This document shows, piece by piece, positions 1 through 31,600 of a stretch of 64,000 bases of DNA. The DNA comes from Caenorhabditis remanei (taxonomy: Eukaryota > Nematoda > Chromadorea > Rhabditida > Rhabditidae). The first letter of the stretch is position 1; every line of letters begins with the position of its first letter. The notes under the pieces were generated by a model. It was given only the letters and a program-made list of their open reading frames with translations. It was not told the DNA's origin and made no database searches. The DNA lies in the NCBI RefSeq assembly GCF_010183535.1, contig NC_071328.1:15314001-15378000 (forward strand), read 5' to 3'. The translations under genes were made by a program, and so were the position numbers.

Positions 1-368
1 ATTTTTTCATAATAAATTTATTTTTTTCAAGTCCACGTCAAAGTAGTGGGAAAGCAAACAGACACACAGACAGACAGATGGGGGAAGAAGAAGGGTGGTG
101 ATGAAATAGTTGAGAGAGGGAAGGAGGCCGCAAATGCCGCAAAGTGTACTTACGTACTTGCGCGGGGACCGTCTGTAGAGGGGAAGCAAACACACAGATG
201 GGTGATGATGAAATAGTTGGGAGAGGGAAGCGTCCTTGCGCGGGGCCGGGGACTGGGAGACAGAAAAGATAGGCCATGTCGATTTACGGGACGGCCATCA
301 CATATTTTAGTGAAATATTGTCGAGAAATGTGTTAATATCGGAAATTATGCAATAAAATGGAAAATTC
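1..368. other. non-coding left flank with imperfect tandem duplication
   Basis: No credible gene was found. Bases 52-180 and 183-262 look like two copies of one segment: both contain AGCAAACA, a GATGAAATAGTTG core, a purine-rich GAGAGGGAAG stretch and a CTTGCGCGGGG end, and the second is shorter. The stretch before the ATPase is AT-rich and may hold its promoter. It could also be the 3' flank of a minus-strand gene further left. Confidence 0.4.
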
Positions 369-464
369 ATGAGTTTCTCCAGTTATCGAAAAATTAATAG
401 AAATTTTTTCGCATCGAATGGTATGAAAATGAAACAAAAATATTCAAAAAAATATTCATTCATC

Positions 465-1094
465 ATGGTTAAGCTTGCTTGGCAGTCTACTATTCTTGTT
501 GTTGGTCCTAGTGGCCAGGGAAAAAGTACTTTGGCACGGAAAATAGTCGATCAAAGGAATACAATTTTTGATGTGGACAGTAAGATCTGTTTTTGGTACT
601 ACGACACTTTCGAAAGTGTACCCGATTCGATGAAAAACCGGAAAGATATCATTTTACGCGAAGGCCTACCAAATCTCGAAGAATTGAAGAAATATAAGAA
701 GGAACAGGCTATGGTTGTAATTGATGACTTAATGACGAAAATTGACCAAAACTCTGGAATGGAGCGTCTAGTGTCAGTTTTAGCCCATCACTACGATATG
801 ACCGTAATGTTTCTCCTACACACCATTTTCTATTCAAAAGTGATAAGAAATCTCCGCCTCCAAGCAAGTTATATCATTCTATTCAAGAACAATTCTGATA
901 AATCGAGTGTCCGGTGTTTGGGTTCCCAGCTTATGCCCGGAGGCTGTAACACTTTTCTTTCTATTTATTCTGACGCTACCAGCCAACCCTATACTTATTT
1001 GTTGATCGACCTTCACAAAAATTGTCCTGATCAAATTCGGTATCGTGATAATATACTTCCTGGAAATATTACTCATGTCTACGTCCCGAAATAA
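465..1094 (+). CDS. Maverick A32-like genome-packaging ATPase
   Basis: This is the FtsK/HerA-type packaging ATPase of Polintons, expected to drive DNA into capsids. The Walker A motif GPSGQGKST lies near the N-terminus and the Walker B motif MVVIDDL mid-protein. The family-typical stretches LAHHYDMTVMFLLHTIF, YIILFKNNSDK and a C-terminal YTYLLIDLHKNCPDQIRYR are also present. I chose ATG 465 because family members usually start 10-20 residues before Walker A. An in-frame ATG at 369 would add 32 Lys-rich residues that look unlike the family. The end overlaps the next gene by 20 bases. No break is visible, so it appears intact. Confidence 0.93.
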   Translation: MVKLAWQSTILVVGPSGQGKSTLARKIVDQRNTIFDVDSKICFWYYDTFESVPDSMKNRKDIILREGLPNLEELKKYKKEQAMVVIDDLMTKIDQNSGMERLVSVLAHHYDMTVMFLLHTIFYSKVIRNLRLQASYIILFKNNSDKSSVRCLGSQLMPGGCNTFLSIYSDATSQPYTYLLIDLHKNCPDQIRYRDNILPGNITHVYVPK

Positions 1095-1434
1095 CTATCC
1101 CCAGTGGGATTTGAAGACTTTTAATGAAATTATGGCTCTTTCGGCAACTTCTGACAAAAATGCTCGTATTGCTCTAATAAATGCAATTCCGGACCAAAAG
1201 CTTATTTGTTTGGTAGAGTTGGTTTATAATGTTTTGAAAGGAAATGTTCAAATATCTCAAAAGAATGTCCGTCGTCTTCAACGTTATTCTACCGACTTGA
1301 GACGCCTATCAACCCTTCGAAATATTGACGAAACTCGTCAGTTTCTAATTCAAACTGGTGGTACACCAATTGCTGTCCTTTTGCCCGTCTTGATTTCTGC
1401 TGCTTCTTCTATTCTGGAACATGTCCTACAATAA
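1075..1434 (+). CDS. small Polinton virion-type protein with GG-hydrophobic tail
   Basis: 119 residues from ATG 1075; an earlier in-frame ATG at 1045 would add ten hydrophobic residues. The middle, KGNVQISQKNVRRLQRYSTD, matches a layout seen in many Polinton small proteins: a short helix, the phrase KGNV, then a basic coiled segment. It is followed by TGG and a hydrophobic C-terminal tail (about 97-119: AVLLPVLISAASSI). In relatives this protein is thought to be a minor virion or core component; its exact function is unknown. It overlaps the ATPase upstream and the integrase downstream (14 bases). The assignment rests on this pattern and on position. Confidence 0.72.
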   Translation: MSTSRNNYPQWDLKTFNEIMALSATSDKNARIALINAIPDQKLICLVELVYNVLKGNVQISQKNVRRLQRYSTDLRRLSTLRNIDETRQFLIQTGGTPIAVLLPVLISAASSILEHVLQ

Positions 1435-3100
1435 ATATGTACTACTATCCGTGGAAGAACATGAAGATTTGGTCAAAAATCGAAGCCCTGCGGATGACTC
1501 AGTCAACAAAATATTGGATGCTCCTATGGAAAATGACGTTAAACTCTCACTTTTGCAACAACAAATATCATCTTTGGTGAAAAAACGGAATGATGAGACA
1601 AAAACTGTAAAAGAAGCGGATAAGAAGCAGGAAGTTGAAAAACAACCCGAATTTGATGAAAACCTAGAAGACGATGTTTTCGCGGATGCTTCCAGTAATT
1701 TTGATGATGGTGCAAGTGAACACTCAGGTAGTTCAGCTGATACTATTCCTACAACACCTTTACCCGTCATTCCACCTTCAATCTCTACCATAGGAAAGAT
1801 AATAGAAAGTAAAACCAAACTCCAGAATCACTTTAAGCGCCACCCAAGTTATTTTAAAATTGATGGGCGGACCGGTGAATTTCGTTTGAGAAACCGATTG
1901 ATTCCCTTGTACAATGTGAAAAGAATTCTTGAAGATTTTTCCAATCAAAATCCAATTTCAACCCCTTCGGAATCGCTACGAGCATTGTCACAATACTTGA
2001 GTGAAACCAATTTTCCTGAAGAATATATTCTTAACCCGAAAAGAAAATACCAAACCCGCTTCACACCCCGGAATTTTGCTGTCAAACGCTGGAGTAATGG
2101 AGGTACACCTGTCAAAAAAGAAAAACTCCTTGAAAGATTGTACCATGATCCAAAATATGGATTGCGAGGTCCGTCAACTTTACTTGCTCAAGCCCGTAAA
2201 ATAAACCCTCACATTCGAAGAAAAGATGTTCTCAGCTATCTTCATTCAAACAATGCATACACACGTCATTTTCACAAAGTCAAGAAAATCAAGCATAATC
2301 CTTGGGTCGCCCGTGGACCTAATAGCCACCATATGGCAGATCTTGCAATGCTCCCAACACTCAAATCAAAGAACAAAGGTTACTGCTACATTTTGGTAGT
2401 GGTTGATGTGTTTAGTCGGTATGTGTTTGCTCGACCATTGAAAAATAAAAAGTGTGAAACAGTCACTGAGGCTTATAAAGATATTTTGCTGTCTGCTCAA
2501 AGAAGAATTCCATCAAGTTTATATACGGATAAAGGTATGGTTCAGTTGTCTTTTATGTGTGCTTATATTTTATTTTCAGGTACCGAATTCATGGGAAAAG
2601 AGTTTCAAAACTTTGTTCGATCAATGGGTATTACGTTTTATAACCCGAAGAACACAAATGTCAAAGCATGTTATGCTGAAAATGTTATCATGAGAATCAA
2701 GAACAAGTTGGAAAAGTGGTTCACCGTTTCACAAAGTTACGACTGGGTCAGTGTATTACCGAAAATCTTGGAAGGACTAAACAGTACTTATATGGATTCG
2801 ATTGGAACATCTCCTGAAAATGTTACTTGGGATAATGCATATAAAATCTGGCAGAGACTCTATGGCGGTTCGAAGGCACAAAACCCTGTATACAAAGTTG
2901 GTGATACGGTCAGAGTCTTGATTGAAAATTCTCCTTTCGCTAAGGGTACAAGAGCCAAATGGACCAATGAAGTCTTCAGAGTGACGAAAATCTTGAATTA
3001 TGATATTCCAGTGTATATTCTATCAGATTCGAACGAAGAGGAGATTGATGGTATTTGGTACGCTGAAGAGATGGTTTTGTATAAAACAGATCATTTTTGA
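1421..3100 (+). CDS. Maverick DDE integrase (rve family), one intron
   Basis: Retroviral-type integrase that inserts the element. Two exons, 1421-2534 and 2580-3100, flank a 45-bp GT-AG intron that is a multiple of three and has no stop, so it also reads through. Residues 1 to about 220 form a variable, acidic, Gln-rich N-terminal extension. A YHDPKYGL motif precedes the catalytic core. The catalytic residues appear as Asp in HMADLAML, Asp in SLYTDKGTEF (across the splice) and Glu in KACYAENVIMR. The C-terminal YKVGDTVRV segment looks like an SH3-like DNA-binding domain. Close relatives include the C. elegans transposon-derived protein F54H12.3. The DDE triad is intact. No HHCC zinc finger was seen. 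Confidence 0.93.
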   Translation: MSYNKYVLLSVEEHEDLVKNRSPADDSVNKILDAPMENDVKLSLLQQQISSLVKKRNDETKTVKEADKKQEVEKQPEFDENLEDDVFADASSNFDDGASEHSGSSADTIPTTPLPVIPPSISTIGKIIESKTKLQNHFKRHPSYFKIDGRTGEFRLRNRLIPLYNVKRILEDFSNQNPISTPSESLRALSQYLSETNFPEEYILNPKRKYQTRFTPRNFAVKRWSNGGTPVKKEKLLERLYHDPKYGLRGPSTLLAQARKINPHIRRKDVLSYLHSNNAYTRHFHKVKKIKHNPWVARGPNSHHMADLAMLPTLKSKNKGYCYILVVVDVFSRYVFARPLKNKKCETVTEAYKDILLSAQRRIPSSLYTDKGMVQLSFMCAYILFSGTEFMGKEFQNFVRSMGITFYNPKNTNVKACYAENVIMRIKNKLEKWFTVSQSYDWVSVLPKILEGLNSTYMDSIGTSPENVTWDNAYKIWQRLYGGSKAQNPVYKVGDTVRVLIENSPFAKGTRAKWTNEVFRVTKILNYDIPVYILSDSNEEEIDGIWYAEEMVLYKTDHF

Positions 3101-3130
3101 GAAATAAGTTTAATTTTTTCATTTGTTATT

Positions 3131-3343
3131 ATGGATAGTCCAAAGTGGGTTTGCGGTCAAACCATCTGTTCTAGGACTTTGATTGTATTTCTTTCACAAG
3201 TTTTTATTATTTATGTTGTATGTTTTGTGGCACTATATAAAGTTTGTACTCTTGATCATCCGCATCAGCAACAGTGGCTTATTATTCTTGGTTCGTGTAT
3301 TGGATATTTGCTACCGAATCCTAAAATTAGAGAAAATGAGTGA
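3131..3343 (+). CDS. small two-helix membrane protein of the Maverick
   Basis: 70 residues with two hydrophobic stretches: about residues 17-39 (TLIVFLSQVFIIYVVCFVAL) and 48-60 (WLIILGSCIGYLLP). The GYLLPNPK end resembles small membrane proteins that commonly sit near the penton gene in Polintons. It starts 31 bases after the integrase stop and overlaps the minor capsid gene by 8 bases. The role is unknown; a virion-membrane or assembly role is inference. Confidence 0.6.
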   Translation: MDSPKWVCGQTICSRTLIVFLSQVFIIYVVCFVALYKVCTLDHPHQQQWLIILGSCIGYLLPNPKIRENE

Positions 3344-4109
3344 TTTCTATGTGACTCTTGTTTCTAATGCCCAAGCCGGATCGACAATTTCTAATTTTCA
3401 AACCCCGCTTCCTTCTTCTTTGGTATTCCGCCGTGAGTATGAAGTAGCCCTTTCTTCCATCATTTATCCAACCTCTCATGATTTGATTTCCCATAACCCT
3501 GAATCACCGGGTAAATATGAGAATGAGTTTTATGTTTCTTTCGGAACAACGGAATACAAGTGTAAAGTGCCAAACTGCTCATTTTCTTCACCAAGTCAAC
3601 TAATCGAGATTTTGAACCATACTCTTGCGAAAACGGTGAAAACAGCAACAAACGCAACAGGAAAGGGAATCGAGTTGTTTTCATACGATCCTCTATTCAA
3701 GCGAGTAACTATTCAACATACGAAGAATATTACACGTGTTGAACTTTCGGACCGCCTCAGCTATTTTCTCGGTCTAAACAAGGAAAACACACAATTTCCT
3801 GCAAAAGGGCAATATACCATGTATTCCGGTGCAGATCTTATGTATATCTACTCTGAAGGCTTGGTAGAACCCCAGATGGTTAGTCATATACAAACACCTC
3901 TTTTGAAGGTTATCAGTATAAGTACGGGAAATGAGGGAAATGTTGAACAAACATTCTCAAACCCGCTATATGTACCATTGAGAGTGAAAGAAGTTTCCCG
4001 CATCGGCATTCAAATTAAGAACGATAGAGATCATTTCATTCCATTTAACTCTGGAAAGATTGTCATCGTACTTCATTTCCGTCCAGTCAAATACTCATTT
4101 GATGGTTGA
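3336..4109 (+). CDS. Maverick minor capsid protein (penton-like, single jelly roll)
   Basis: 257 residues from ATG 3336; an upstream in-frame ATG at 3183 lies inside the previous gene and gives an atypical N-terminus. The opening, MSDFYVTLVSNAQAGSTISN, is the family signature (FYVTL.SN followed by a strand after LPSSLVFRREYEVALSSIIYP). Penton-like proteins of this group fill the capsid vertices. It lies between the small membrane protein and the PX-type gene, the usual Polinton neighbourhood. The reading frame is intact and unspliced. Confidence 0.88.
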   Translation: MSDFYVTLVSNAQAGSTISNFQTPLPSSLVFRREYEVALSSIIYPTSHDLISHNPESPGKYENEFYVSFGTTEYKCKVPNCSFSSPSQLIEILNHTLAKTVKTATNATGKGIELFSYDPLFKRVTIQHTKNITRVELSDRLSYFLGLNKENTQFPAKGQYTMYSGADLMYIYSEGLVEPQMVSHIQTPLLKVISISTGNEGNVEQTFSNPLYVPLRVKEVSRIGIQIKNDRDHFIPFNSGKIVIVLHFRPVKYSFDG

Positions 4110-4320
4110 TTACGTATTCAACTACTCAAGAAATCCGCGTCTCACACTATGCATATTTACTTTGATCCTGATGGTTCTATTGATTGGGTCCATTTTTTCG
4201 AAAATGACCCAAGTCAGACCGGTTCTGGTGGATTTCGTGCCGGAAGTCTCTATCAACGGGGAAACGGTCCTTTCTCGCAATTACTCGGAAAACTCTTCAT
4301 TTCTGCTGTACCCCTGCTAA
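4102..4320 (+). CDS. possible overlapping small membrane ORF
   Basis: 72 residues from ATG 4102, overlapping the last 8 bases of the minor capsid gene and the first 170 bases of the PX-type gene in another frame. One clear transmembrane segment (about residues 11-26: LTLCIFTLILMVLLIG) is followed by a polar tail. The start sits exactly where other genes of this element begin, just before the previous stop, which argues for it. It could also be a chance frame in an overlapping region. Function unknown. Confidence 0.4.
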   Translation: MVDYVFNYSRNPRLTLCIFTLILMVLLIGSIFSKMTQVRPVLVDFVPEVSINGETVLSRNYSENSSFLLYPC

Positions 4321-4661
4321 AACGTATGGGTGTTTCAGTAGGTCGTGAAGTCATGGATTCGTCACTTCGTATTGCAAACGACGTAGCGGCTGGTGATTCT
4401 TTTAAACAGTCCTTGTCAAAAAACGCTACCAATTCTTATAATTCTCTTATCAATCGTGCGGTCAGCAAACTCGATCAGTCTGGTGGAAGAAGAAAAAGGA
4501 GAAAAACGATTCGTCGGAAGCGGAAACCTGCCAGAAAAACAAGGAGAAAGGCCCCAAAAAGAAAAGTTCCATCTAAAAAGCGGAAGACGTCCAAGAAGAA
4601 AAGGTCTTTGCCGAAATCAACATCACGAAAACGCGACATCTTTGGAAAATGGCAAAGCTAA
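4149..4661 (+). CDS. Maverick PX-type basic virion protein
   Basis: 170 residues in two parts. Residues 1-110 contain the family phrase SLYQRGNGPFSQLLGKLF, a hydrophobic AVPLLKRMGVSVGREV stretch and an amphipathic DDVAAG-like region. Residues 113-170 are an extreme Arg/Lys tail that begins SGGRRKRRKTIRRKRK. Polinton proteins with this N-terminal pattern are thought to be internal, adenovirus pVI/core-like virion proteins. The tail would suit DNA condensation or nuclear targeting (inference). It overlaps the major capsid gene by 13 bases. Confidence 0.8.
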   Translation: MHIYFDPDGSIDWVHFFENDPSQTGSGGFRAGSLYQRGNGPFSQLLGKLFISAVPLLKRMGVSVGREVMDSSLRIANDVAAGDSFKQSLSKNATNSYNSLINRAVSKLDQSGGRRKRRKTIRRKRKPARKTRRKAPKRKVPSKKRKTSKKKRSLPKSTSRKRDIFGKWQS

Positions 4662-5893
4662 TCGAATCAAAGAGTGCTCCAAGCGCCCCATCCAATATTT
4701 GTCTTTTTGACACTCCACCAAGTCAAGTTGCATTCACAAAGGGAACATGGATGACTTATACCACAACAAACGCTATAAATTCAAAAGGACCGTATGTTTT
4801 CAATGTTTATGATAGTGCACACTTTTTTCAACTCAACAAAACTTATATAAGTTTTAAACTGAAACTCAAAAATGCTGAAGAAGGAGATGACGTGCCTCCT
4901 ATTCAATATACAAACTTTATTGGAGCCACCTTCTTTGACCAAGTTAAAGTAACCTTTAACAATGTTCCGGTCTATGACTCGGACTATTATGCATACAAAA
5001 GCTATATTCAAACTCTACTTGGAGAAAATACTGAAACCAAAGAAGGATTTCTTTCTACTGCTGGATGGCGGGACCCTAACAGTAAAGACGCCCGTGTCTT
5101 GACTACAAAATCAGAATTGGATCTGTATGCTCCGCTACTTTTGGAATGTTTCCAAACGGATAGACTTTTGATCCCACATGTTGATATTCAACTTACACTC
5201 TACCGAAATAGTGACGCTTTCTGTCTGCAAAGTTCTAAAGACACAAAGGCTGAATTGGAAATTTTCGATTTGAAACTACATATGAGGGCGATTGATGTTG
5301 TACCATCAGCTACTCTAGCTTTGGAAAATCGATTGAGAACTGCACCAGCTCAATATCCATTCACTCTTTCGAAAGTAAAAATTATTGGAGTCCCTGAAGG
5401 ACGCTTTGAACTACCGTTCAGCACTATATATCATGACATTGTTCCAAGGCGTATAATTATTGGACTTCTCAATCCCAATGCTGATGTCACCAAAGATTCT
5501 CTCGAGTTTCCACATTTTGACGTTTCCGAAATTCAACTAAACGCTGGCGGAACAGCGTACCCACCACAACCAATTCAATGTGACTTTGAGAATAAGAGTT
5601 ATGCTCAAGCACTCGCTCGACTATATGATGAACTCGGATGTGTATCAAATAAGACGTGTCCCTGTATTACATACAAAATGTTCCGAAGTGGGCACACTTT
5701 CTTTGTTTTCAACATTGCCCCCATTGATACCTCAAATTCATGGGAATTGGTACAAGCCGGATGCACTCAACTGTTATTGCGTTTTAAGAAGAAAGTCCCC
5801 GCTGGAGGGCTGAATGTTTTGGTTTTGTCACAATATGATGCAATGTATGAGGTCGACCGTTACCGCAATGTTACAACAAACCCAAAAAATTAA
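4649..5893 (+). CDS. Maverick major capsid protein (double jelly roll)
   Basis: 414 residues, the usual length, without introns. The N-terminal half shows the typical order: a FNVYDSAHFFQLNKTYISF strand, NFIGATFFDQVKVTFNN, then YDSDYYAYKSYIQTLLGEN and FLSTAGWRDPNSKD. The second jelly roll includes PHVDIQLTLYRNSDAFCL and VPRRIIIGLLNPNA. Relatives include the C. elegans protein F54H12.2. This is the hexon-like building block of the predicted capsid. It overlaps the PX-type gene upstream and lies 37 bases before the PAZ-like gene. No frameshift or stop is seen. Confidence 0.93.
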   Translation: MAKLIESKSAPSAPSNICLFDTPPSQVAFTKGTWMTYTTTNAINSKGPYVFNVYDSAHFFQLNKTYISFKLKLKNAEEGDDVPPIQYTNFIGATFFDQVKVTFNNVPVYDSDYYAYKSYIQTLLGENTETKEGFLSTAGWRDPNSKDARVLTTKSELDLYAPLLLECFQTDRLLIPHVDIQLTLYRNSDAFCLQSSKDTKAELEIFDLKLHMRAIDVVPSATLALENRLRTAPAQYPFTLSKVKIIGVPEGRFELPFSTIYHDIVPRRIIIGLLNPNADVTKDSLEFPHFDVSEIQLNAGGTAYPPQPIQCDFENKSYAQALARLYDELGCVSNKTCPCITYKMFRSGHTFFVFNIAPIDTSNSWELVQAGCTQLLLRFKKKVPAGGLNVLVLSQYDAMYEVDRYRNVTTNPKN

Positions 5894-5930
5894 TTCATTT
5901 TGTACTTTTTCCGTCGTACAAGTCGGTCGT

Positions 5931-6459
5931 ATGATGTTGCCGGGAACCACGCGCCCTATTGTTCCTCCGGATTTTGCCAATCCTCTTCCAGCCGGAGTAA
6001 GTGTTTTAAAATTATTTTTTTCTTATTTTTTCTTTTTCAGTGTATGGACATTAGTCTATCATCGTACTTCCTCATGGTCCACAAAATTGAGAATCTTTCA
6101 ATTCACAACGTTCGAGATATGAATCGCCACTTGAAGTCATCCAACGTCCTCTTTTTCTGGAATTCCTGTAATGGGCAGGAGGTTAGCCAAGAAGCTGAGT
6201 TTAGCCTGTGAGTTTGATTTTTACCTAAAACCTTCATTTTCAATGATTTTTCAGTGACGCTAAACCACGGAATCATTTCTTCCCCAGCCGTTTGGTACCA
6301 CGAATTCCAGGGAAGAAACGCCAGCTCATCTCCGTCCAGAAATATTTCGAAACTAAATATAATATTACACTCTCGTATCCCAACTCCCCACTATTCCGCG
6401 AGCCATCGGGCAGTCTTTATCCTATTGAGTGTGTTTATGTTCGTATTCGCTTGTTCTAA
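5931..6459 (+). CDS. PAZ-like (truncated Argonaute-like) cargo gene, three exons
   Basis: Exons 5931-5996, 6041-6207 and 6255-6459, with GT-AG introns of 44 and 47 bp, give an open 145-residue frame. The last exon holds the pattern that closes Argonaute PAZ domains: NHFF, then LISVQKYFETKYNITLSYP, then P....G..YPIE. In Argonautes this segment helps hold the 3' end of the guide RNA. The first exons contain MDISLSSYFLM, which may match the N-terminal strand of Argonautes (weaker). No MID or PIWI is present, so no slicing is expected. The stop is part of TAATAAA, and the protease starts seven bases later. A role as a decoy against small-RNA silencing is inference. Confidence 0.68.
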
Positions 6460-6465
6460 TAAATT

Positions 6466-6984
6466 ATGTCCTTATCAACTATACAATTGGAGAAATTTCT
6501 TAGTTCATGTCATATAACCAGAAAAAGTTTCCGGGGAGTATTTCCTAGTGATCATGAACCAATAATCACCAGAAGACCATGCTCATTTATTTGGAATACA
6601 GCTCCAAGTACCGAAACTGGTGAACATTGGGTGGCACTCTGGGTAGATGACCGAAACTATGGATATTTTATGGATAGTAGCGGCTGTGATCCTCAAACCG
6701 AGTTTTTGGACTTTTTTACGAAAAACTGCGTCAAATGGAAGAAAGTATTTCAAAAACCAATACAAGGCCTTTTGTCTGATGTTTGCGGATATTATTGTAT
6801 TTACTTTTTGCTTCGGAAAGCTATGAAACACTCTAATAAGCACATAAGGTGCCCATTCTCAGACAATCTGCCAAAAAACGATGATTTCGTGGTAAAATGG
6901 GTTAAGAATCACTTGAAGACCTGTGAGAGCCGAGTATATAAACCTCTGAAATATGAAAAGCCTTCATTCATTCATAATGTCTGA
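6466..6984 (+). CDS. Maverick adenain-like cysteine protease (PRO)
   Basis: 172 residues, ULP1/adenain fold. The catalytic set is visible: His54 in GEHWVAL, Asp70 in GYFMDSSG, Gln100 in KPIQGLLSD and Cys107 in DVCGYYC. In adenoviruses the counterpart matures virion precursors; in Polintons it is assumed to process capsid proteins. The start follows the TAATAAA of the PAZ-like gene by two bases, and the end overlaps the next ORF by 8 bases. All key residues are present, so it appears functional. Confidence 0.92.
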   Translation: MSLSTIQLEKFLSSCHITRKSFRGVFPSDHEPIITRRPCSFIWNTAPSTETGEHWVALWVDDRNYGYFMDSSGCDPQTEFLDFFTKNCVKWKKVFQKPIQGLLSDVCGYYCIYFLLRKAMKHSNKHIRCPFSDNLPKNDDFVVKWVKNHLKTCESRVYKPLKYEKPSFIHNV

Positions 6985-7252: not shown

Positions 7253-7639
7253 ATGTCGACCCACCAAAAAAGTGCCCTCCAACAAGTAAGTTACAAATTC
7301 ACTATAGACTTACTATTATATATTTAGGAAGTTGTTGAATCCCCGGATGGCCAAGGAGCCCTACTCAAAGAAGAAGAGGAAAAGTTTTGGAAGGAATTGC
7401 AAACTCTCCAAGGTAAAATTATTTTTTTAAATATTTCAATACAATGTACCTATTCAGCTCAAGCACCACCAAAGCATCAAGTAGAGCCCCAACCAGAAGA
7501 ACCACAGAAGAAGATCAAAATCTCGGATATTCCTGAAGTTGTGTTGGAAGAGGATGAGGATATCCCGGACGGTCAAGGTATTCTTCTGGAGCGTCAGGCG
7601 GCACTGTTTGCTGCGGAGTTGGAGAAACAATTCAATTAA
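7253..7639 (+). CDS. small acidic spliced Maverick ORF, unrecognised
   Basis: Three exons, 7253-7285, 7328-7412 and 7458-7639, with introns of 42 and 45 bp and matching phases, give 99 residues. The protein is charged: KEEEEKFWKELQTLQ forms a likely short helix, followed by a Pro/Gln linker, then KKIKISD and an acidic VVLEEDEDIPDGQG run. The DGQG-(A/I)LL phrase occurs twice, in exons 2 and 3. It has no similarity that I know. Exon limits may be off by one base. Confidence 0.55.
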
Positions 7640-10859: not shown

Positions 10860-11087
10860 ATCTTCCCATAGCTACAGACTCCGCCCACAAATACGCAGAT
10901 ATGCAAGAGTTAGCTCAATCTGTCCAGTTCCGTTCTCATAGTCTCATTTTAGTAATTTTGGGTCCTACCGGATGGTGACTCCTTCTTTCTCTCTCCCTTT
11001 TTTCGCTCACGCCCTCTGGGACCCCTCTACCCCTGACTTACTTTACTACTTTTCAGATATAACCTCACTGACCCAACGCTCAACAAG
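10860..11087 (+). promoter_or_regulatory. conserved promoter/5' UTR block, copy 1
   Basis: Shared with three other places in the window (13,240; 14,050; and minus strand near 21,600). Common phrases are GATAGATCTTCCCATAGC, CTACAGACTCCGCCCACAAA and CCTACCGGATGGTGACTC, then a TC-rich run. A splice acceptor, ACTTTTCAG, ends about 32 bases before the ATG, suggesting an SL trans-splice site or a 5' UTR intron. Confidence 0.6.
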
Positions 11088-11807
11088 ATGTCATTTTACA
11101 TCGTAACCTCTGATTTCATCACCATCGTCAAACCATGCACTTTGCACTCTTTCCATCCTCTTACAGAGGATCTTTCCGTTCAATTTCTGTCAATTAAAGA
11201 AGAGAAAAGGGACATCAGTCTGGACTTCTTCATGGACGCCGACAAGTTCTCGTTGTTAGTGAACAAAAAACACAGAAGAGTGATCAACGAGGTGCTCTTC
11301 CCAGAACTTCCCGAAGAAGTTGAGGAAAACACCTGGAAATGCTTTGGGAGCAACGAGGATTGCAAAGAAGCAGATGATATCTTTCCACGGAAGACTGCCG
11401 AGAAACTTCCTCTACTTTCCAACAATCCACAGGACTCTGCTGCCAACTCACTTTCATCTCCTCCATTCTTCATCGACACTTCCATTCCCCCACCTTCCTT
11501 CCGTCTTCCGGTCTTCATCGACACATCCGTACCACCACCTTCGTTCCTCACACCACCGACATCCGGACCAGCCTCGCCATCGCTCACCGCTGAAAATCCG
11601 TCTTTTGCATTCAACATGGGTGTTGCCAATGCTCCGAAGCCAGGATTCAAAGTGGCTAAAAAGAAACTCTCGGATTCTGGAGAAGTCTTCGAGATGTACG
11701 TCGATACCAGCAAGCCGAAGAAAGTAAAGGTATTCTCTCCAGAAGAAATCAAGAAGCAAGAGAGTCTGGTTGATGAGTGGAAGCGAAAGATTCAGAATAC
11801 CCTTTAA
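11088..11807 (+). CDS. nematode paralogue family, copy 1 (239 aa), unrecognised
   Basis: Intronless gene. The conserved N-terminal part (about 1-85) includes KPCTLHSFHPL, DISLDFFMDADKFSLLVNKK and a TWKCFGSNEDC end. A Pro/Ser-rich middle has the phrase FIDTSIPPPSF twice, where the paralogues have one copy, and lacks the TPSSIS.(Y)PIHPSKTA segment of the other copies. The C-terminal part is FEMYVDTSKPKKVKVFSPEE, ending in VDEWKRKIQNTL. No signal peptide, membrane segment or known domain is visible. AATAAA-type signals follow at about 11,912. Function unknown; the family is probably lineage-specific. Confidence 0.75.
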   Translation: MSFYIVTSDFITIVKPCTLHSFHPLTEDLSVQFLSIKEEKRDISLDFFMDADKFSLLVNKKHRRVINEVLFPELPEEVEENTWKCFGSNEDCKEADDIFPRKTAEKLPLLSNNPQDSAANSLSSPPFFIDTSIPPPSFRLPVFIDTSVPPPSFLTPPTSGPASPSLTAENPSFAFNMGVANAPKPGFKVAKKKLSDSGEVFEMYVDTSKPKKVKVFSPEEIKKQESLVDEWKRKIQNTL

Positions 11808-13959: not shown

Positions 13960-14285
13960 TTCTTTTTTAGTCACACTTTGCACATTCCTGACCCTTTCTC
14001 ACTCACACTTCCAAATGAGAAGATGGTTATGATGGGAATCTCCCCAAGTAGTTATTGATAGATCTTCCCATAGCTACAGACTCCGCCCACAAATACGCGC
14101 ATCTTTGCGGTTTGGGTCAATCTGTCCATTTCCGTTCTCATACTCTCATTATAGTCATTTTGCGACCTACCGGATGGTGACTCTTTCTTTTTCTCTCTCT
14201 TTTTACTTTTACGCGCTCTGGGACTCCTATAACTTATTTTTCTGTCTTTTCAGATATAACCTCACTTACTCTAACGTTCAACGAG
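13960..14285 (+). promoter_or_regulatory. conserved promoter/5' UTR block, copy 3
   Basis: Carries GATAGATCTTCCCATAGC, CTACAGACTCCGCCCACAAA, CCTACCGGATGGTGACTC and a TC run, then a CTTTTCAG acceptor about 30 bases before the ATG (SL trans-splice site or 5' UTR intron end). The start also retains a short piece of the long-inverted-repeat arm. Confidence 0.6.
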
Positions 14286-15080
14286 ATGCCATCGTCTACC
14301 GTCACCTCCGGATTTGTCACCGTCATCAAACCATGCATGTGGCACTCCTTCCATCCTCTTGGAGAGGATCTCTCCGTTCAACTCCCTGCGGTTAATGAGG
14401 AGAAAAGAGAAATTGGACTGGACGTCTTCATGGATTCCGATAAATTCTCAATGATTGTGAACAAGAAGCATCGTATGATTTCCAACACCACACTTTTCCC
14501 ATGGCTTCCAGAAGATGCCGAGGAAAGTGTCTGGAAATGTTTCGAGAATGACGAGGACTACAAGGAAGGAGATGCTGTTGCAGTCAAGCAGGAACCACAG
14601 TGCTCGAAGGAAAATGTCGATAAAGATGAGAAGAAGGGTACAGTAGTCAAGTTGACTATTTACACCCCGTCCTCTGTCTCCACAAAGCACTATCCGGTCC
14701 ATCCATCGAAGACTGCCGGGAAACCTGCACAATGCTCCAAGGATCAACTGGAAGCTGCTGTCAACGCTCTTTCACCTGTTCCACTCCTCATCGACACATC
14801 CGTTCCACCACCATCCTTCCTCACTCCACCCACATCCGGACCAGCTTCCCCAACCACCACAGCAGAGAAGCCATCATTTGCCTTCAACGTCGGAGTCGTG
14901 AATGCTCCACAACCAGGAGTCAAGATTACCAAAAAGCACCTCATGGAAAATGACGACGCCTTTGAGATGATCGTGGATGAGAGCAGGCCGAAGAAGGTGA
15001 AAATCTTTTCACCAGAAGAGATCAAGAAGCAGGAGAGCCTGGTAGACGAATGGAAGCGAATGATTCAGAAATCCCTTTAA
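14286..15080 (+). CDS. nematode paralogue family, copy 2 (264 aa), unrecognised
   Basis: Single-exon gene with the full family layout. The N-terminal region has KPCMWHSFHPLGEDLSVQL and GLDVFMDSDKFSMIVNKKHR. A charged linker includes KENVDKDEKKG, followed by TPSSVSTKHYPVHPSKTAGK. The Pro-rich core is LIDTSVPPPSFLTPPTSG, and the C-terminus is KKVKIFSPEEIKKQESLVDE. There is no signal peptide or membrane segment, so a cytosolic or nuclear protein is likely (inference). Length and order match the minus-strand copy at 20,682, so the two are probably the intact members. Confidence 0.78.
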   Translation: MPSSTVTSGFVTVIKPCMWHSFHPLGEDLSVQLPAVNEEKREIGLDVFMDSDKFSMIVNKKHRMISNTTLFPWLPEDAEESVWKCFENDEDYKEGDAVAVKQEPQCSKENVDKDEKKGTVVKLTIYTPSSVSTKHYPVHPSKTAGKPAQCSKDQLEAAVNALSPVPLLIDTSVPPPSFLTPPTSGPASPTTTAEKPSFAFNVGVVNAPQPGVKITKKHLMENDDAFEMIVDESRPKKVKIFSPEEIKKQESLVDEWKRMIQKSL

Positions 15081-15359: not shown

Positions 15360-15630
15360 GAAACAAGGGCTACATTTTTGTAGTTGACAACTTTTTTCTA
15401 TCCCCGCCCATTTTTGAGATAGGCGCCTTTAAATGTTGCACGGCAAGAGCGCGCATGTATGTTAGCTGCATAACTGCTAACTATCTTTAAAGGCGCGTAT
15501 CTCGAAAGTGGGCGGAGCTAGCAAAAAAGTTGTCAACTACAAAAATGAAAGTTTTAATCGATCTACAATTTTGTAGTTAAAAGTTTCTTGTTTGCTCCGC
15601 CCACTTTTGAGATATGCACTTTCAAAGCTA
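15360..15630. repeat. CGCCCACTTTT hairpin element
   Basis: A forward arm (GTAGTTGACAACTTTTTTC, then CCGCCCATTTTTGAGATAGG and CGCCTTTAAA) at 15,368-15,432 faces a reversed arm at 15,485-15,545 across a short loop. A further forward arm at 15,570-15,632 leads into the 27-bp minisatellite. Confidence 0.7.
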
Positions 15631-15644
15631 GCAGTAAATGCAAC

Positions 15645-15835
15645 AATTTCGCGCCGCAGGCACTCCAGCCGATTTCAGCGCCGCAGGCACCCCAGACGAT
15701 TCTAGCGCCGCAGGCACCCCAGCCGATTCTAGCGCCGCAGGCACCCCAGCCGATTCTAGCGCCGCAGGCACCCCAGACGATTCTAGCGCCGCAGGCACCC
15801 CAGACGATTCTAGCGCCGCAGGCATCCTAGACAGT
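15645..15835. repeat. 27-bp minisatellite (GCGCCGCAGGCACCCCAG type)
   Basis: About seven units of GCGCCGCAGGCACCCCAG(C/A)CGATTCTA. Because 27 is nine codons, every frame stays open and yields false ORFs such as repeated SAAGTPADS on one strand and ALESAGVPA on the other. Confidence 0.85.
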
Positions 15836-15951: not shown

Positions 15952-17880
15952 CTACAATCGTCTAGCAGCACGTCTTCTATATCCGCTCTGCTCGGCCTGT
16001 GGTTGCTCGACCTCTCCGTATCCGACAGTTCTTGGTGGGCATGGACAGTAGGCGGCGTCAGTGCCAGGTGCTCCTTCGATTCCATTCTCTCCAGCGACAC
16101 CATCTGGTCCGGCCTCTCCATCTTTTCCAGGTGCTCCTGCGATACCCTCGGATCCAGCATGTCCTGGAGCTCCATCCTCTCCTGGTGCTCCGTCTTGTCC
16201 TGGTGCTCCAGCTGGTCCTTCTGGTCCTTGTGGTCCTGGCGCGCCTGCACCGCGTTGTCCGTTCTTTCCAGCTGGTCCTGGTGCTCCTGCTTCTCCGTCT
16301 TGTCCTGCGGCTCCGGCGTCTCCTTGGGCTCCTGGTGCTCCTGGAGCTCCGTCATTTCCACGAGAGCCGTCTTGTCCTGGTTGTCCGTCTGGTCCGGCTG
16401 GTCCGGCCTCACCGTCTGGTCCCTGTGGTCCTGGAGCACCGGCTGGACACTTGATGCATTCGTGTTGTGCGTATGGGTCGATTGGCGATGGGATACCGTC
16501 GTGTCCGTTGCCTCCGGCTTGTCCTGGTGCTCCGTCGTCTCCTGGCTGTCCTGGCTCTCCTGGTGGTCCTGAAAGAAAATTATGACGTTAAAACTCTTAG
16601 TTTTGAAATTTCCAAAGTTTTGATACCCATATCGAAAGGTTTTGAAAATTATCGGAATTTCAAGATTCTACAATATTCCTGGAGCCTTCTAGACGCAAAT
16701 TTTTTCAAAATTTTATCAATAACCTTCTTAGTTTTGAAATTTCCAAAATTTTGATACCCATATTGCTTATATTCTGACACTTTCAATATTCTGAAAATTC
16801 AGAAGACGTCAAAATTCAGAATCACCCATCTAACCAAATCCTATCAATATGGGTATCAAAATTTTGGAAATTTAAAGACAAACAACTTTAACGATCTCAT
16901 TCTTCTTAGTTCTTAAGTTTTTCACAGTTTTCAAGGTTTTGGACGAAAAATCGTTGGTTTGCAATCTAGAAAAAAAATTGACGTCAAAGTTGTTCAGCGT
17001 AAAATTTCCAAAGTTTTGATACCCATATTGCCACACTTCCAGAATTTCAGATTCAGAAGACGTCAATCTTCTGAAATTCTAAATCCCACCAAAACCTCTC
17101 AATATGGGTATCAAAACTTTGGAAATTTCACGTTGAAGAATTCTAACGACATAATTTTTCCTGATTTTTAATTTCTCACCGGATTTTTCCATTCATTCTA
17201 ATTTCTTACCGGCTGGTCCAGCTGGGCAGTTGCTTGGCTGTGGTCCGCAGTTGCATGATCCGCCGGCCTGTCTTTTTCCACGTCTGAACAAGTCCTCCAA
17301 ATTGTTTCCTGGCGCGTTTTGTTGGACGGTGATCATCTTGTTCCAGGCGTCATCGGCGAGGAGCTGAAAAATGGAAAATTTTGATGCCTCAGAATTGAAA
17401 TTTAGAGAAAATAACGTCGTTAACGTTGTTCTACGCAAAATTTCCAAAATTTTGATACCCATATTGATAGGATTTGGTGAGATGGGGGATTTTGAATTCT
17501 GACGTCTTCTGAATTTTCAGAATTTTTAAACTATGGCAATATGGGTATCAAAACTTTGGAAATTTTGAAACTAAAAAGATTAACGATGAGGTTTTTGAAA
17601 ATTTTACGTCTAGAAGGCTTCAGATGACTTCAGAATCTTGAAATTTCGATTTTCTCAAATTTTCAAAACCTATCGATATGGGTATCAAAACTTCGGGAAT
17701 TTCAAAATTAAGAAATTTAACGATGTGTTAATTGATAATTACCTTAAACTCATGCATATCATCCATAACATCAAAATACAAGGAGTTGATGTCATTGAAG
17801 AGTACACCAGCGACGACCAACGATCCTAGAATGACGATGCCAGAAATGGCGGAGAGGGTTCCAGCCAAGAAGCGAGACAT
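15952..17880 (-). CDS. cuticle collagen, three exons, 302 aa
   Basis: Exons 17880-17743, 17363-17210 and 16568-15952 join in phase. Residues 1-60 are the nematode cuticle-collagen N-terminal domain: [20 protein letters not shown] gives a signal-anchor-like hydrophobic stretch (about 9-30), then VMDDMHEFK and DAWNKMI. A subtilisin-type processing site RGKR (74-77) precedes a Cys cluster (83, 85, 92). Gly-X-Y blocks follow, interrupted once by a [10 protein letters not shown] segment with two Cys. The tail has YCPCPP and ends in basic YRRRAARRL. The product would be secreted by hypodermis, cross-linked by Cys and tyrosine, and built into cuticle. I cannot name the orthologue within the large col family. 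Confidence 0.92.
16569..17742. repeat. 29-bp motif repeated in both collagen introns
   Basis: Intron 2 (16,569-17,209) and intron 1 (17,364-17,742) both hold copies of TTTCCAAAGTTTTGATACCC followed by ATATTG. Copies start near 16,608, 16,737, 17,007 and 17,437 in one orientation and near 16,848, 17,100, 17,540 and 17,677 in the other. Copies in opposite orientation can pair. Confidence 0.8.
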
Positions 17881-20681: not shown

Positions 20682-21476
20682 TTAAAGGGACTCCTGAATC
20701 TTGCGCTTCCACTCATCAACTAGACTCGACTGCTTCTTGATTTCTTCTGGTGAGAAGACTTTGATCTTCTTCGGCTTGCTCTCATCAACGTACATCTCGA
20801 AGGCGTCTTCATTTTCCAGTAGGTGTTTCTTGGCGACTTGTACTCCTGCAGTTGGAGCATTGACGACTCCAACGTTGAAGGCGAATGACGGTTTTTCGGC
20901 AGTGAGTGATGGCGAGGCGGGTCCGGACGTTGGTGGTGTGAGGAAGGAGGGTGGTGGAATTGAGGTGTCAATAGTAAGTGGGAGGGACGAAGATGCATTG
21001 GCAGAAGGTTCCAATTGATCCTTGGGGAGTGGAGCAGGTATCCTGGCAGTCTTCGATGGGTGGATCGGATAGTTCCGAATAGAGATTGAGGAAGGAGTGA
21101 TGAGTTTCAACGTCACCATTTGATTCTTCTTCTCATCTTTATCGGAAATATCCTTCTTGATGAGTCGAGCAGGTGTCTCCGATGTCTTCGGCGGAACCAC
21201 TTCATCGTTGTTTCCAAAACACTTCCAGAAGTTTTCCTCATCATCTTCTGATAGCCATGGGAGCAGCACGTTGTTGACAACGCTACGGTGTTTCTTGTTG
21301 ACGATCATTGAGAACCTATCGGCATCCATGAAGACGTCAAGAGAAATAGCTCGTTTTTCGTCTTTAGCAAAGTTGACGGGAGCGGAACGGGGGTTCGGAT
21401 GGAAGGAATGGAAGGAGCAAATGGATGGTGGGCAGAGGGCAACGGAGGTGACGGATTGGGCGGATGGAACAACCAT
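20682..21476 (-). CDS. nematode paralogue family, copy 3 (264 aa), unrecognised
   Basis: Single-exon minus-strand member. Order from the N-terminus: CSFHSFHPNPRSAPVNFAKD, then AISLDVFMDADRFSMIVNKK, NFWKCFGNNDE, a charged linker with ISDKDEKKNQMVTLK, TPSSISIRNYPIHPSKTARI, LTIDTSIPPPSFLTPPTSG and a C-terminal KKIKVFSPEEIKKQSSLVDE. Same length as copy 2. The opening differs (MVVPSAQSVTSVALCPP), so the first 25 residues are poorly conserved. The 3' flank carries the family signal TTATCATTAAAG/GGTTATTATTATTAC (plus-strand view). Function unknown. Confidence 0.77.
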   Translation of the reverse strand: MVVPSAQSVTSVALCPPSICSFHSFHPNPRSAPVNFAKDEKRAISLDVFMDADRFSMIVNKKHRSVVNNVLLPWLSEDDEENFWKCFGNNDEVVPPKTSETPARLIKKDISDKDEKKNQMVTLKLITPSSISIRNYPIHPSKTARIPAPLPKDQLEPSANASSSLPLTIDTSIPPPSFLTPPTSGPASPSLTAEKPSFAFNVGVVNAPTAGVQVAKKHLLENEDAFEMYVDESKPKKIKVFSPEEIKKQSSLVDEWKRKIQESL

Positions 21477-21960
21477 ATTGATGACGAAGGAGTAGGAGTT
21501 AAGTTCTAAAAATGGAGAAGTAAGTCAGGGGTAGAAGGGTTCTAGAGGGCGAGGAAAACGAGGAGAGAAAAAAGGAGTCACCATCCGGTAGGATGCAAAA
21601 TGACTATAATGAGAGTATAAGAACGGATCAGGACAGATTGACCCAAACCGCGAATATCTGCGTATTTGTGGGCGGAGTCTGTACCTATGGGAAGATTCCC
21701 ATAAAAACCATCTTCACATTGGGAAAAAGTGAGGTTCCAAGTTGGGGAGATAAGAGATAGTGTGAGTGAAAAAGGACCTGACAGGGTACTGTAAGAAATC
21801 CATTGCTCACTGTCATCTGACCTGATTTACGACTTATAACAAAAGATATCGACCTCGGTAAGACTTTAGGCTAAGTAAGGTTCCCCGTTGGGAGACAAAC
21901 AGCTAGTGCGAGTGCCAAGTGTGACTGGCATGTTACTGTAACCTAATTTTTGCTATCAAA
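21477..21960 (-). promoter_or_regulatory. conserved promoter/5' UTR block, copy 4, with extra repeat arm
   Basis: The plus strand shows GAGTCACCATCCGGTAGG (21,577), TTTGTGGGCGGAGTCTGTA (21,665) and CCATCTTCACATTGGGAA, the reverse complements of the block in copies 1-3. Further upstream, two stretches resembling the fold-back arm (about 21,731-21,840 and 21,880-21,945) lie in tandem. Confidence 0.55.
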
Positions 21961-27250: not shown

Positions 27251-28626
27251 ATGTTATTCTCAGGCGCCTCGACTGCAAAACCGAAGAAGGACGAGAAGAA
27301 GGATAAGAAGAGTGATCGGGGTGAGAAAATAGGCGGTTTTTGGGTTAAAAATATAAAAAGAGACTAAAAAAGACAAAAAAATCAAAAATTTTGATTGAGA
27401 ACAGTCGAATATCCGTTGAAAATCGCAAAAATTTAAAAAAAAAACTCGAAAAAACTTTTTTTAAGTTGATGGCCTAGAAAACCCAAAAACTGAAAAAGTT
27501 AGGCCACGGACCTATTTTTGATTCTAGAACACCTGAGATGTCTGAAATAGTTTTCAGAATTCAAAAATACTTGATTTGAGCCAAGTTATAACGTTTTGAA
27601 GTTGATGGCCTAGAAACCCAAATTTGGGTTTCTAGGCCACTGAATTTAAAGCGTCATAACTTGCCTTAAACTCGTTGGTTCTGAGTTTAAAAAAATGCAT
27701 TTCACTGAAAAAATCCTCAGAATTCAAATATAGGTCCATGGCCTAACTTTTCCAGTTTTTGGATTTCTAGGCCACCAACTTCAAACCGTCATAACTTGGT
27801 TCAATTTGGGTTTCTTTGATTCACGTGCATTTTTGATTTTAGACCACCCGATTGTCTGAAACAGTTTTCAGAATTCAAAAATAACGATTTTAAGCGAAGT
27901 TATGACGATTTGAAGTTGGTGGCCTAGAAACTCAAATTTTGAAAAAGTTAGGCCACGGAGCCATTTTTGAATTTTGACGATTTGCTGAACAAAATGCAGT
28001 TTTCAAAACTTAAAAATACCCATTTCAAGCCAAGATATCACGATTTGAAGTTGGTGGCCTAGAAAACCAAAATTGGGAAAGTTGGGCCACGGATCTATTT
28101 TTCGATTTCTGAGGTTTTTGTGAGTGAAATGCAGTTTTCAAAATTCAAAAAAACCCGAATCGAGGCAAGTAATGACGCTTTGAAGTTGATGGCCTAGAAT
28201 CCCCAGCTTTTTATTTACTAGGATACCAAATTTAGGTTCATTTAAAAGCTCTGGACCAGCTGAATCCAAAAATCTCATTAAAAATTCAAATTTCCCGCAA
28301 TTCCAGAAGAAAAATACGAACTACAAGAGCAAGTGTTCATCCGATGGGCGAACCACCTGCTCGGCACCGACCGTCTCACGGATTACAAAAGTCTTCAAGA
28401 TGGATCCAACGCGATCTTCGTCTATCAAGCAATCATCGGTCAAACGATGGCCGTCCTTGGGAATCCTTCAGACGACTGGCCGAATATTCTACAGTATGTC
28501 GGCGACTCGAAGACGAATCCACAGGAAGTGATGGACGGAAATCAGAAGGCGGTGTTGTCGGCGTGGTGGCAATTGGTACAATTCTTCTGGAAGAATCATG
28601 CACCTCTACAGTTGAGAGAGGAGAAG
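27251..28626 (+). CDS. dys-1: dys-1 exons 1-2: N-terminus and first CH domain
   Basis: Exon 1 (23 codons and one base) is a Lys-rich leader. Exon 2 (320 bp) carries calponin-homology domain 1, residues about 25-130: QEQVFIRWANHLLG, then DYKSLQDGSNAIFVYQAIIG and AVLSAWWQLVQFFWKNHAP. Together with CH2 it forms the actin-binding domain. The family's usual xFTxW.N start is here VFIRWAN, and CH1 looks diverged relative to vertebrate dystrophin, as in C. elegans. Confidence 0.93.
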
Positions 28627-31600
28627 GTACGGGTGTTTTCTATATCTATGTGCTAGAGTCTAGCGCAAGAATCGGCTGTGGCGCCTGCGGCGCTAGAATT
28701 GGCTGGGGTGTCTTTGGCGCAAGAATCGGCTGGGGTGCCTCCGGCGTTAGAATCAGCTGGGGTGCCTCTAGCGCAAGAATCGGCTGGGGTGCCTGCGGCG
28801 CTAAAATCCAGGGTTGGGAAATTCCGGGCCGGGCCGGGCCGGGCCGGCCCGACTGAGAAATTTTTCTCGGCCCGCCTCGGCCCGGCCCGTTCGGCCCGGT
28901 CGGCCCGGCTCCTGTAGAAATTTGAAATTTTTTGAAAAATTTTTGAGTTTTTTTTTGCAAAAAGTCGAATTTTCGACTATGTTTTGGAATATCGATAAAA
29001 AACTGAAGTGTACGAGAATTTCGGAGCATTTCGATCATTTTTTAATGAAAATTTCGAAAAAATATGTGAAAAAATTGAGCACATTTTTTGAATCCGGGCC
29101 GGGCCGGCAAAAAATTTCTGTCAGCCCGGCCCGGCCCGGCCGGGCCAGCCCGGAATTTCCCAACCCTGCTAAAATCGTTAAATAAATTCGCTGGGGCGCC
29201 TTCGGCGCAAAAATGATTTGTGGGGAGGAGAAGATCTTAGTGAAACAGCAATCTTTGATGGCGCATATCTGAAAAGTGGGCGGAGCTAACTAAAAAGTGT
29301 CTATTGCATAGTTGTAGATAAAATCTAGGGGTTCATTTTTTCAATTTTCAATTTTTTTGATAGATCCGCCCACTTTTGAGATATGCGCTTTTATAATCAG
29401 GCACCTGAAAACTCGCCCACTCATCTTTAAACGCGCATATCTCAAAAGTGGAGGAGCTAGAAGACAATGTTCAATTACAAAAATGTAGTTCTGGTTTTGA
29501 TCTACATAGAAATATAAAAACTGCCCAAATTGGGCTCACCGGGGTCAACTTCCAAAATTGAAGAATTTTTCCTTTACTCAAAATTTTTTTTCCCAAAAAA
29601 AATTTCTAACATTTAAGAGCCCCGTCACGGCTACTCCTGTTGTCCGAGCATTTCATATTGTACACATTTTTGTAGATCAAGTAAAGACCTTCATTTTTGT
29701 AGTTGATACTTTTTTGATAGCTCCGCCCACTTTTGAGATATGCGTTTTCTAAGATAGCTATTTCAACAAGATCCTCTCCCCCTCGCCAACAACCATTTTT
29801 GCGCCGAAGGCGCCCCACACGATTCTAGCGCCGCAGGCACGCCTGACAGTTATAGAACAGCGTTCTAGCGCTGGAGGCGCGCCAGACAGTCAAAATAGAA
29901 AAAAAAGTTAAAGTTTTGCCCCTATTCCAGCTATCCGAGGCAATCAAACAATGGTGCATCGAAGTGATGAGTTCATATGAAGAGATTGATGTCTACGATT
30001 TCACGTCTTCCTTCAGAGATGGTCACGCCTTCAATTATCTGATTCATTCTTATGAGTGAGTTTTGGAAAAATTTGAAAAAAATTATGCGACTCTAAAGTT
30101 TAAAATTCTCTAAATTTGTCATTTTTAACGCCAAGATGTGATTTTTACATCAAAATGACCGGAAACATTTATTTCTGAGGTTAAAAACTATTTGAAACTT
30201 AATTTTCCATGTTGAAAATCATATTTCTAGCAAAACTTTAGCCAAGAAGACCGCTGGTCAAAATGCACCACTTTGAGAATGGGTACCAGGGTTCGATCCC
30301 GCTTGGGGTCAATTTTGTGAATTTTTGAATTTTTCTGTTTTTAATTCGTTTTATCTTGTGAATCAAGAATAGGGATCTATTTTTGTAGTTGAAAATTTTT
30401 TGCTAGCTCCGCCCACTTTTGAGATATGCGCCTTTAAAGATTGCCGCACCTTGACTAATAAATGTCTGCCTTTAAAAGCGTGTATCTCAAAAGTGGGAGG
30501 ACCTAGAAAAAAGTGGTCAACTAAAAAAATGTGTAAAATTTTAAGTAGGTCATTTTTGTAGTTGACAACTTTTTAATAGCTCCTCCCATTTTTTAGATAT
30601 GCGCCTTTAAATATACCGAATTTTCCATAACGTCTTTAATCTCTGGTTACTGTACTTTTGGTATATTTGGGTCGATTTGAAAGCTAAAAACAATTTTTTT
30701 TCATTTTTAAGATCCAAATTATAAATTTTCCAGCAAAAAACTGATAAACCTCTCAAAAACCGCCGAAATGAGTGCAATCGACCGTATCGAGAACGCGTTT
30801 GGAGTGGCAGAGAAGACGTGGAACGTGCCAAGACTATTGAGTCCGAAAGGTGGGATTTCTCTATCATCTCTGTGTTTCCTCACTTTATTTAGTTATGATC
30901 TACCACAAGATATCGTGGTAGATCATAACTAGAGAGTGAGAGACGTAGACACATTGCGTAATAAATGAATGACCTGTACAACACATATCCCCCCCCCCCC
31001 CACCACTCTTTCTACTTCCCCCCCCCCTCTCTATCTCATCACACTCTGACTGTCTGTGTCTCTCTGATTCGTATGATCTCTAACATGTCTCACTGTCTGC
31101 GTCTATCATTTTTGGTCTCTCTCAGGTATGTAGTTAGTTAGTCTCTTGGTTAGGAAGAACAAATCAGTTTCTTCAGTACTATATCTTTCTCTTTTTCCTT
31201 TTTTGTGTTCCTCTTTTTACTTATTTCTTTAAAAAATATTTATTTTATACATAATTATAAAATCTGTAATTAGGAGTACTTAATTGAGCAATTAATGAGG
31301 TTTGAGATCAGTCACAAAAAATGGTGAAGTTTGAGATACCGTCACAGCTTTCTTCGCTGTACCACTACTTCTATTTCAGTTTTATTGTGTAGATCAAACC
31401 TAGCTCTCTATTTTTGTAGTTGAACAATTTTTAGTAGCTCCGCCCACTTTTGAGATATGCGCCTTTAAAGATTGCAGCTTAAGTTTGGCGGTTGCTTTTA
31501 AAGGCACACGCATATCTCAAAAGTGGGCGGAGCTAGAAAAAAGTTGTCAGCTGGAAAAATGAAGAACTAGATTTGATCTACACAAGGAATGTAAAATTTT

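Follow-up and report, generated by a model that had tools for sequence, protein, structure and literature searches.

What is a small spliced gene with Argonaute-like sequence doing among the virion genes of a virus-like mobile element, and why has the element kept it? The question is raised by a Maverick (Polinton) element of Caenorhabditis remanei that lies in the 64,000-nucleotide (nt) stretch of DNA analysed here (the window, C1:15314001-15378000), where a gene at 5931..6459 separates the genes for the major capsid protein (MCP) and the adenovirus-type cysteine protease. The initial annotation described it as a truncated Argonaute-like PAZ gene without PIWI. As judged from the sequence and a structural model, it is an intact spliced gene of 145 codons, encoding a 20-residue leader followed by a complete predicted PAZ domain and no PIWI, and in nearly every copy belonging to this Maverick lineage it holds a fixed place between capsid and protease. 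We read it as a PAZ domain that was captured from an Argonaute, has been retained by the Maverick as a stand-alone gene and may interfere with host small-RNA silencing, a tentative reading to which we give slightly less than an even chance.

The gene comprises three exons on the + strand. Exon 1 (5931..5996) encodes residues 1-22 of the public 145-residue protein (P0003, GCK72_003286), and its second methionine codon (5934) is the start in other lineages, versus 5931 in the window gene. Intron 1 (5997..6040, +; 44 nt, GTAAGT...TTTTCAG, phase 0) is followed by exon 2 (6041..6207, +; residues 23-77), which forms the N-terminal half of the PAZ domain by predicted fold only, with no sequence match, and intron 2 (6208..6254, +; 47 nt, GTGAGT...TTTTCAG, phase 2) by exon 3 (6255..6459, +; residues 79-145, including the TAA stop), which holds the C-terminal PAZ half with the YFxxKY clamp motif. 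The exon translations map exactly onto the public protein, residue 78 straddling intron 2, and this match together with the GT..AG intron ends upholds the three-exon open frame with 44- and 47-nt introns that had been annotated. The protease ATG (6466) lies 6 bases past the stop, not seven as first stated. A possible poly(A) signal between the two genes, an AATAAA over the stop codons (6458..6463, +), has AATAAA or ATTAAA counterparts at 39 of 42 PAZ-protease junctions, a raw count from junctions that are A+T-rich.

Is the encoded protein a PAZ domain? Exon 3 alone matches the Pfam PAZ family (PF02170) at 26.6 bits (E 6.4e-6) and the whole protein at 25.1 bits, with PAZ as its sole Pfam domain and a curated cut-off of 28.8 bits. 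A genome-wide PAZ family search (130.47 Mb, 186 contigs; E <= 0.001) lists eight sister copies, all below the cut-off, and not the window gene; in the protein database, PF02170.29 is precomputed for two of 11 relatives (P0001 and P0003). A chance motif within an unrelated small viral protein would suit the sub-threshold score of the window member, the restriction of recognisable PAZ sequence to ~40 C-terminal residues of 145, and the fact that just one of 29 matches in a PDB sequence search falls below E 0.001. We consider this explanation highly improbable, given that 28 of those 29 matches are Argonaute or Dicer-like proteins, that shuffled-sequence controls fail to reproduce the PAZ match, and that the confident predicted fold matches PAZ across the whole domain, residues 20-145. 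The comparison of predicted structure with PAZ domains that the initial annotation had proposed supports the PAZ homology and, since the modelled domain is whole, leads us to reject a truncated one. No PIWI match was found in the window's stretch of C1 or in the 145-residue protein, as originally described. Because the gene recurs at one and the same position in 43 copies, its occurrence is more than chance.

These 43 copies were recovered by searching the genome with exon 3, the weakest two being on C35 (E 1.5e-7) and C117 (E 7e-4). The protease stands next to the PAZ exon in 42 of them, with an 837-base insertion between the two at L010, while the MCP is present in 41 and an exon-2 match likewise in 41. 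In the reverse count, a PAZ exon lies upstream at 42 of the 43 protease loci that share at least 49% identity with the window's. The exceptions to this linkage, both included in the counts, are C4:9566730 (L089), where no PAZ was detected, and L028 (C16). The position between capsid and protease noted in the window therefore recurs in the sister copies, where the initial annotation had suggested looking for it.

The copies also retain the reading frame. Of the 43, 39 have an open exon 3 (L045 is truncated; L048, L050 and L051 are frame-broken), and a script parsed exon 1 with intron 1 in 35 copies (end misplaced in L011), exon 2 in 39 and intron 2 in 41 (end misplaced in L050), finding no exon 1 in L019-L023, L045, L048 and L051 and no exon 2 in L011, L045, L048 and L051. 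Copies merely 37-55% identical keep the frame and both introns (43-48 nt and 42-55 nt). Ratios of nonsynonymous to synonymous substitution rates (dN/dS) were estimated for 24 hand-picked, non-independent pairs (17 close, 7 distant); values of 0.03-0.21 in 15 of the 17 close pairs indicate that purifying selection acts in most of them. A host PAZ fragment captured once and now decaying as a neutral passenger could claim the four copies with a broken or truncated exon 3, and we give it next to no probability: conservation across copies, including frame and intron positions kept at such low identity, the dN/dS values and relatives in three other species contradict it. Frame decay in sister copies, which in combination with missing splice junctions in transcripts had been named in advance as counting against the gene, is not the general pattern.

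The gene is conserved less well than its neighbours. Among eight lineage representatives (28 pairs), mean identity is 45% for exon 2 and 54% for exon 3, compared with 67% for the MCP and 73% for the protease, and the PAZ exons are less identical than MCP and protease in all 28 pairs. In diverged, unbroken copies, the pVI-like and penton-like proteins are mostly 71-86% and 61-71% identical to those of the window, also above the PAZ gene, whose identity is the lowest of any virion-cluster gene compared. Alignments A1 (15) and A2 (13) hold the distinct sequences from the 43 copies, excluding duplicates and L045, L048, L050 and L051; A2 further excludes L032, L040 and L044.

The window begins within the Maverick element, whose gene series (357-6984) lies entirely on the + strand. 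It opens with a P-loop ATPase (357..1094), matched by several Pfam P-loop families, most below their cut-offs, and presumably acting in packaging, and continues with a retrovirus-type integrase (1394..3100; PF00665, E 1.9e-8). A probable minor capsid protein (3183..4109), which we take to be of penton type, and a small basic virion-type protein (4110..4661), which we assume by position and look to be like adenovirus pVI, have no Pfam match above cut-off. The double jelly-roll MCP (4643..5893, frame open from 4577; PF21738, E 6e-5, below cut-off) precedes the PAZ gene, and the protease (Peptidase_C5, 6466..6984; E 1.5e-4) follows it, with a 103-residue frame without a Pfam match above cut-off further downstream (7328-7639). 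ATPase, integrase, MCP and protease are therefore all linked to the PAZ gene in the window, in line with the Maverick context first assigned.

Relatives of the protein extend to other species. A protein database search, which requires shared words and may miss more distant relatives, returned ten named Caenorhabditis proteins and one unnamed ENA protein, and nine Caenorhabditis proteins with a second query, from C. remanei, C. nigoni, C. brenneri and C. tropicalis (alignment A5 holds 10 of the 11, P0010 being excluded). One C. nigoni gene model fuses the PAZ gene to part of an MCP (59% identical to that of the window), which puts the gene in the same place in that species. UniRef already labels one relative 'PAZ domain-containing protein', so that the domain call is in the databases; no statement of a Maverick context was found. 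No relatives turned up in viral contigs scanned with exon 3, the MCP and the protease. Among the matches listed in a search of open-access literature, outside which two key nematode Maverick studies fall, no PAZ gene in a Maverick or Polinton was reported.

How old is the association? Sixteen further protease loci, 25-33% identical to the window's, are taken as a distant Maverick group on the basis of sequence, and four of them (L082-L084, L087) were examined with their MCP. A gene that we call PAZ1 lies near an opposite-strand MCP at five loci (L082-L086; several kilobases separate the two at L084), and its exons match window exon 3 (profile match 96%, E 1.1e-9) and, with shuffles reaching at most 21%, window exon 2 (85%, E 6e-6). 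The same five loci carry PAZ2, probably a second PAZ gene, whose profile matches host PAZ at 65% (56% on repeat) and the window family at 58%, exceeding 200 shuffles (at most 2.2%), with no match in Pfam or PDB; additional PAZ2 pieces occur at C4:17949 kb and C4:20449 kb. PAZ1 falls within 6 kb of three of the sixteen distant protease loci, the other 13 having no PAZ1 match in the genome search, and a local profile search found no PAZ gene at L087, which keeps the protease and an MCP 63% identical to that of L082. Because PAZ1 is present in the distant group yet L087 lacks a detectable PAZ, the gene is old without being universal.

We infer, with moderate confidence, that the gene descends from a worm-specific host Argonaute and was captured as genomic DNA with an intron splitting the PAZ domain. 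Intron positions, compared at 12 hand-picked loci, suggest such a capture from an Argonaute that we assume to be of the WAGO (worm-specific Argonaute) type, without amounting to proof for the window gene. Host PAZ genes with a nearby PIWI match (L052, L055, L062, L063, L069 and L073), to which we likewise apply the WAGO-type label, have a candidate phase-2 acceptor that precedes the clamp motif by 9-14 codons, and thus a candidate intron in mid-PAZ like that of the Maverick gene; the best host matches to the exon-3 profile include L063 and L055. The phase-2 intron lies 13 codons before the equivalent motif in PAZ2 (read from DNA by eye) and 12 codons before it in a dispersed family of stand-alone PAZ-like genes. 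In the window gene it lies 24 codons before the motif, and another candidate acceptor, 13 codons before it, is unused in the public model. In host genes L001-L006, the PAZ match lies within a single open frame. The host alignment (A3) represents six of 33 fetched PAZ-type loci.

A phylogeny against host Argonautes was another check proposed at the outset. In a tree built from 31 short segments of PAZ, PAZ1 of both Maverick groups and the dispersed family form one weakly supported cluster (85/46), apart from the host Argonautes, on whose side PAZ2 falls; the tree does not put the Maverick gene among the hosts, which differ from it also by their nearby PIWI, and it points to no particular source. 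The dispersed family (L077-L081; CRE_14949, GCK72_011465) is ~122 codons long, counting a 48-nt phase-2 intron that lies in frame, and has nine matches, two with stops (C3:13661193, 13665755, 13678892, 15026590, 15030979 and 15039145; C4:7144114; C1:2933183; C4:20597906). It resembles the Maverick gene in standing alone, in its phase-2 intron and in a profile match of 96.8%, and differs from it in that no Maverick genes occur in the stretches fetched and that its N-terminal half resembles PAZ2. Its Pfam PAZ match reaches only E 0.02, and its model, from a thin alignment and a frame that retained the in-frame intron, has a predicted local distance difference test score (pLDDT) of 39, too low to be informative. 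At L081:4180-7536, the PAZ-like frame is antisense to the start of a 1018-residue frame that contains a reverse transcriptase and two aspartyl-protease regions and weakly matches a viral fusion glycoprotein, below the cut-off. Elsewhere, L052 (C6:3264826-3267999) and L053 (C40) are near-alike host Argonaute genes with PAZ and PIWI matches, one of them ~6 kb from Maverick copy L029, and another PAZ-like exon (L088:2510-2740, minus; C2:17210546) has its nearest listed PIWI match ~46 kb away.

What might the protein do? Small-RNA silencing is abundant in the germlines of nematodes, and its antagonism, though weakly supported, seems to us the likeliest role. The PAZ protein would be produced together with the virion genes and would disturb host small-RNA silencing, either because its YFxxKY pocket clamps small-RNA 3' ends or because it poses as a piece of Argonaute, so that the element would be less silenced in the germline. 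According to excerpts of two reports, the human AGO1 PAZ pocket grips the terminal phosphate through Y309, Y314 and H269 (PMC2635679), and K313 is among the RNA contacts (PMC5896489). The motif YFxxKY corresponds to hAgo1 Y309, K313 and Y314 and is found in 15/15 window-lineage exon-3 sequences and 10/10 database proteins; this, together with an identity lower than that of nearby genes, favours the proposed role. F87, invariant in the window family, may be the counterpart of hAgo1 F292. The Maverick protein is thus like the PAZ domains of human AGO1 (1si2, 4krf) and Hiwi1 (3o6e) in its predicted fold and the three kept residues, and unlike them in that it lacks N, MID and PIWI, is only 12-19% identical in sequence where structural alignments are shown, has no recognisable equivalents of the basic pocket residues or of H269 and Y277 and is encoded by a virus-like mobile element. 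A more specific version, in which a PAZ module captured long ago from an Argonaute, present as one gene or two depending on lineage, is an element-encoded and perhaps virion-delivered decoy against germline Argonaute/small-RNA defence, seems to us possible though rather doubtful.

Several observations weigh against a captured Argonaute PAZ that acts on silencing. YFxxKY occurs in none of the five distant-group PAZ1 sequences, which weakens the proposed role and implies that 3'-end clamping is not a general property of the family, and in only two of six host PAZ domains (four if K or R is allowed). H269, Y277 and R275/K276/R278 of hAgo1 have no recognisable counterpart, the N-terminal half not being reliably alignable, and exon 2 showed no PAZ similarity in Pfam, PDB or profile comparison. 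As to origin, the window intron lies ~11 codons upstream of the host position, and the tree, with too few columns, resolves no host source. As to selection, the remaining two close pairs have a dN/dS of 0.53 (six substitutions) and no nonsynonymous changes, respectively, six of seven distant pairs are saturated (the other has a dN/dS of 0.21), and the low identity of the gene may reflect weak constraint only. Finally, the position in the virion cluster suits a virion role equally well.

Such a role, in which the captured PAZ fold is reused as a minor capsid, cement or assembly protein that is produced together with the MCP and matured or released with the protease, is in our view unlikely, yet a serious competitor. 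It would explain why the gene is fixed between MCP and protease in the window lineage and near the MCP at five distant-group loci, and the absence of YFxxKY from distant PAZ1 is what would be expected were RNA binding not its job; set against this are the lowest identity within the virion cluster and the failure to detect PAZ in L087, which keeps MCP and protease, and at C4:9566730 (L089). Less probable still is a replication or packaging factor that uses PAZ to grip the element's single-stranded DNA at its 3' ends during what we presume to be protein-primed replication. The clamp retained in the window lineage would fit such a factor, and DNA can bind the AGO2 PAZ domain according to an excerpt of a review (PMC6361761), whereas the location among virion genes and the L087 Maverick, with MCP and protease and no PAZ detected, do not favour it. 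Given the location of the gene in the virion cluster and the loss of the clamp from the distant group, the virion and DNA-end roles are live rivals to antagonism of silencing.

Nematode Mavericks carry wosp proteases and krma kinases, which are nematode genes, and a fusogen, as the work of Widen et al. is summarised in PMC10680173 (Widen et al. 2023 is also cited in PMC11125864). The PAZ gene resembles these as an extra gene on nematode Mavericks and differs in lying inside the virion cluster at 42/43 lineage protease loci, which is the behaviour of a lineage core gene and not of sporadic cargo. The RNA interference (RNAi) suppressors P19 and B2 sequester small or double-stranded RNA, as excerpted from PMC12454879; by analogy, small-RNA sequestration or action on Argonaute partners is proposed for the Maverick protein, unlike which no suppressor named in that excerpt has a PAZ fold.

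Elsewhere in the window, three frames of 256-299 residues (11037-11807, +; 14181-15080, +; 20682-21524, -) share a C-terminal stretch by eye and have no Pfam match at E <= 0.01. An 'ILAPQAPQ'-type repeat or its other frames, possibly one family by eye, recurs at 15558-15830, 28236-28856, 35380-35871, 47276, 55176 and 62232. A collagen gene lies at 15955-16587 (-; E 8.7e-25), and a frame at 38600-39619 (+) has a spectrin-repeat match below cut-off (E 1.5e-5).

If the proposed reading is correct, the gene would provide a virus-encoded PAZ protein and an RNAi escape route for virus-like elements. It would be a virus-encoded stand-alone PAZ domain; in a library of predicted viral protein structures, none of 99 matches reached E 0.001. 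Mavericks are reported to carry genes between nematode species (PMC10680173, in excerpt). A piece of the silencing machine that the element itself carries, maintained by selection and bearing introns like those of hosts, would make the persistence of such elements a question that can be tested with a named protein.
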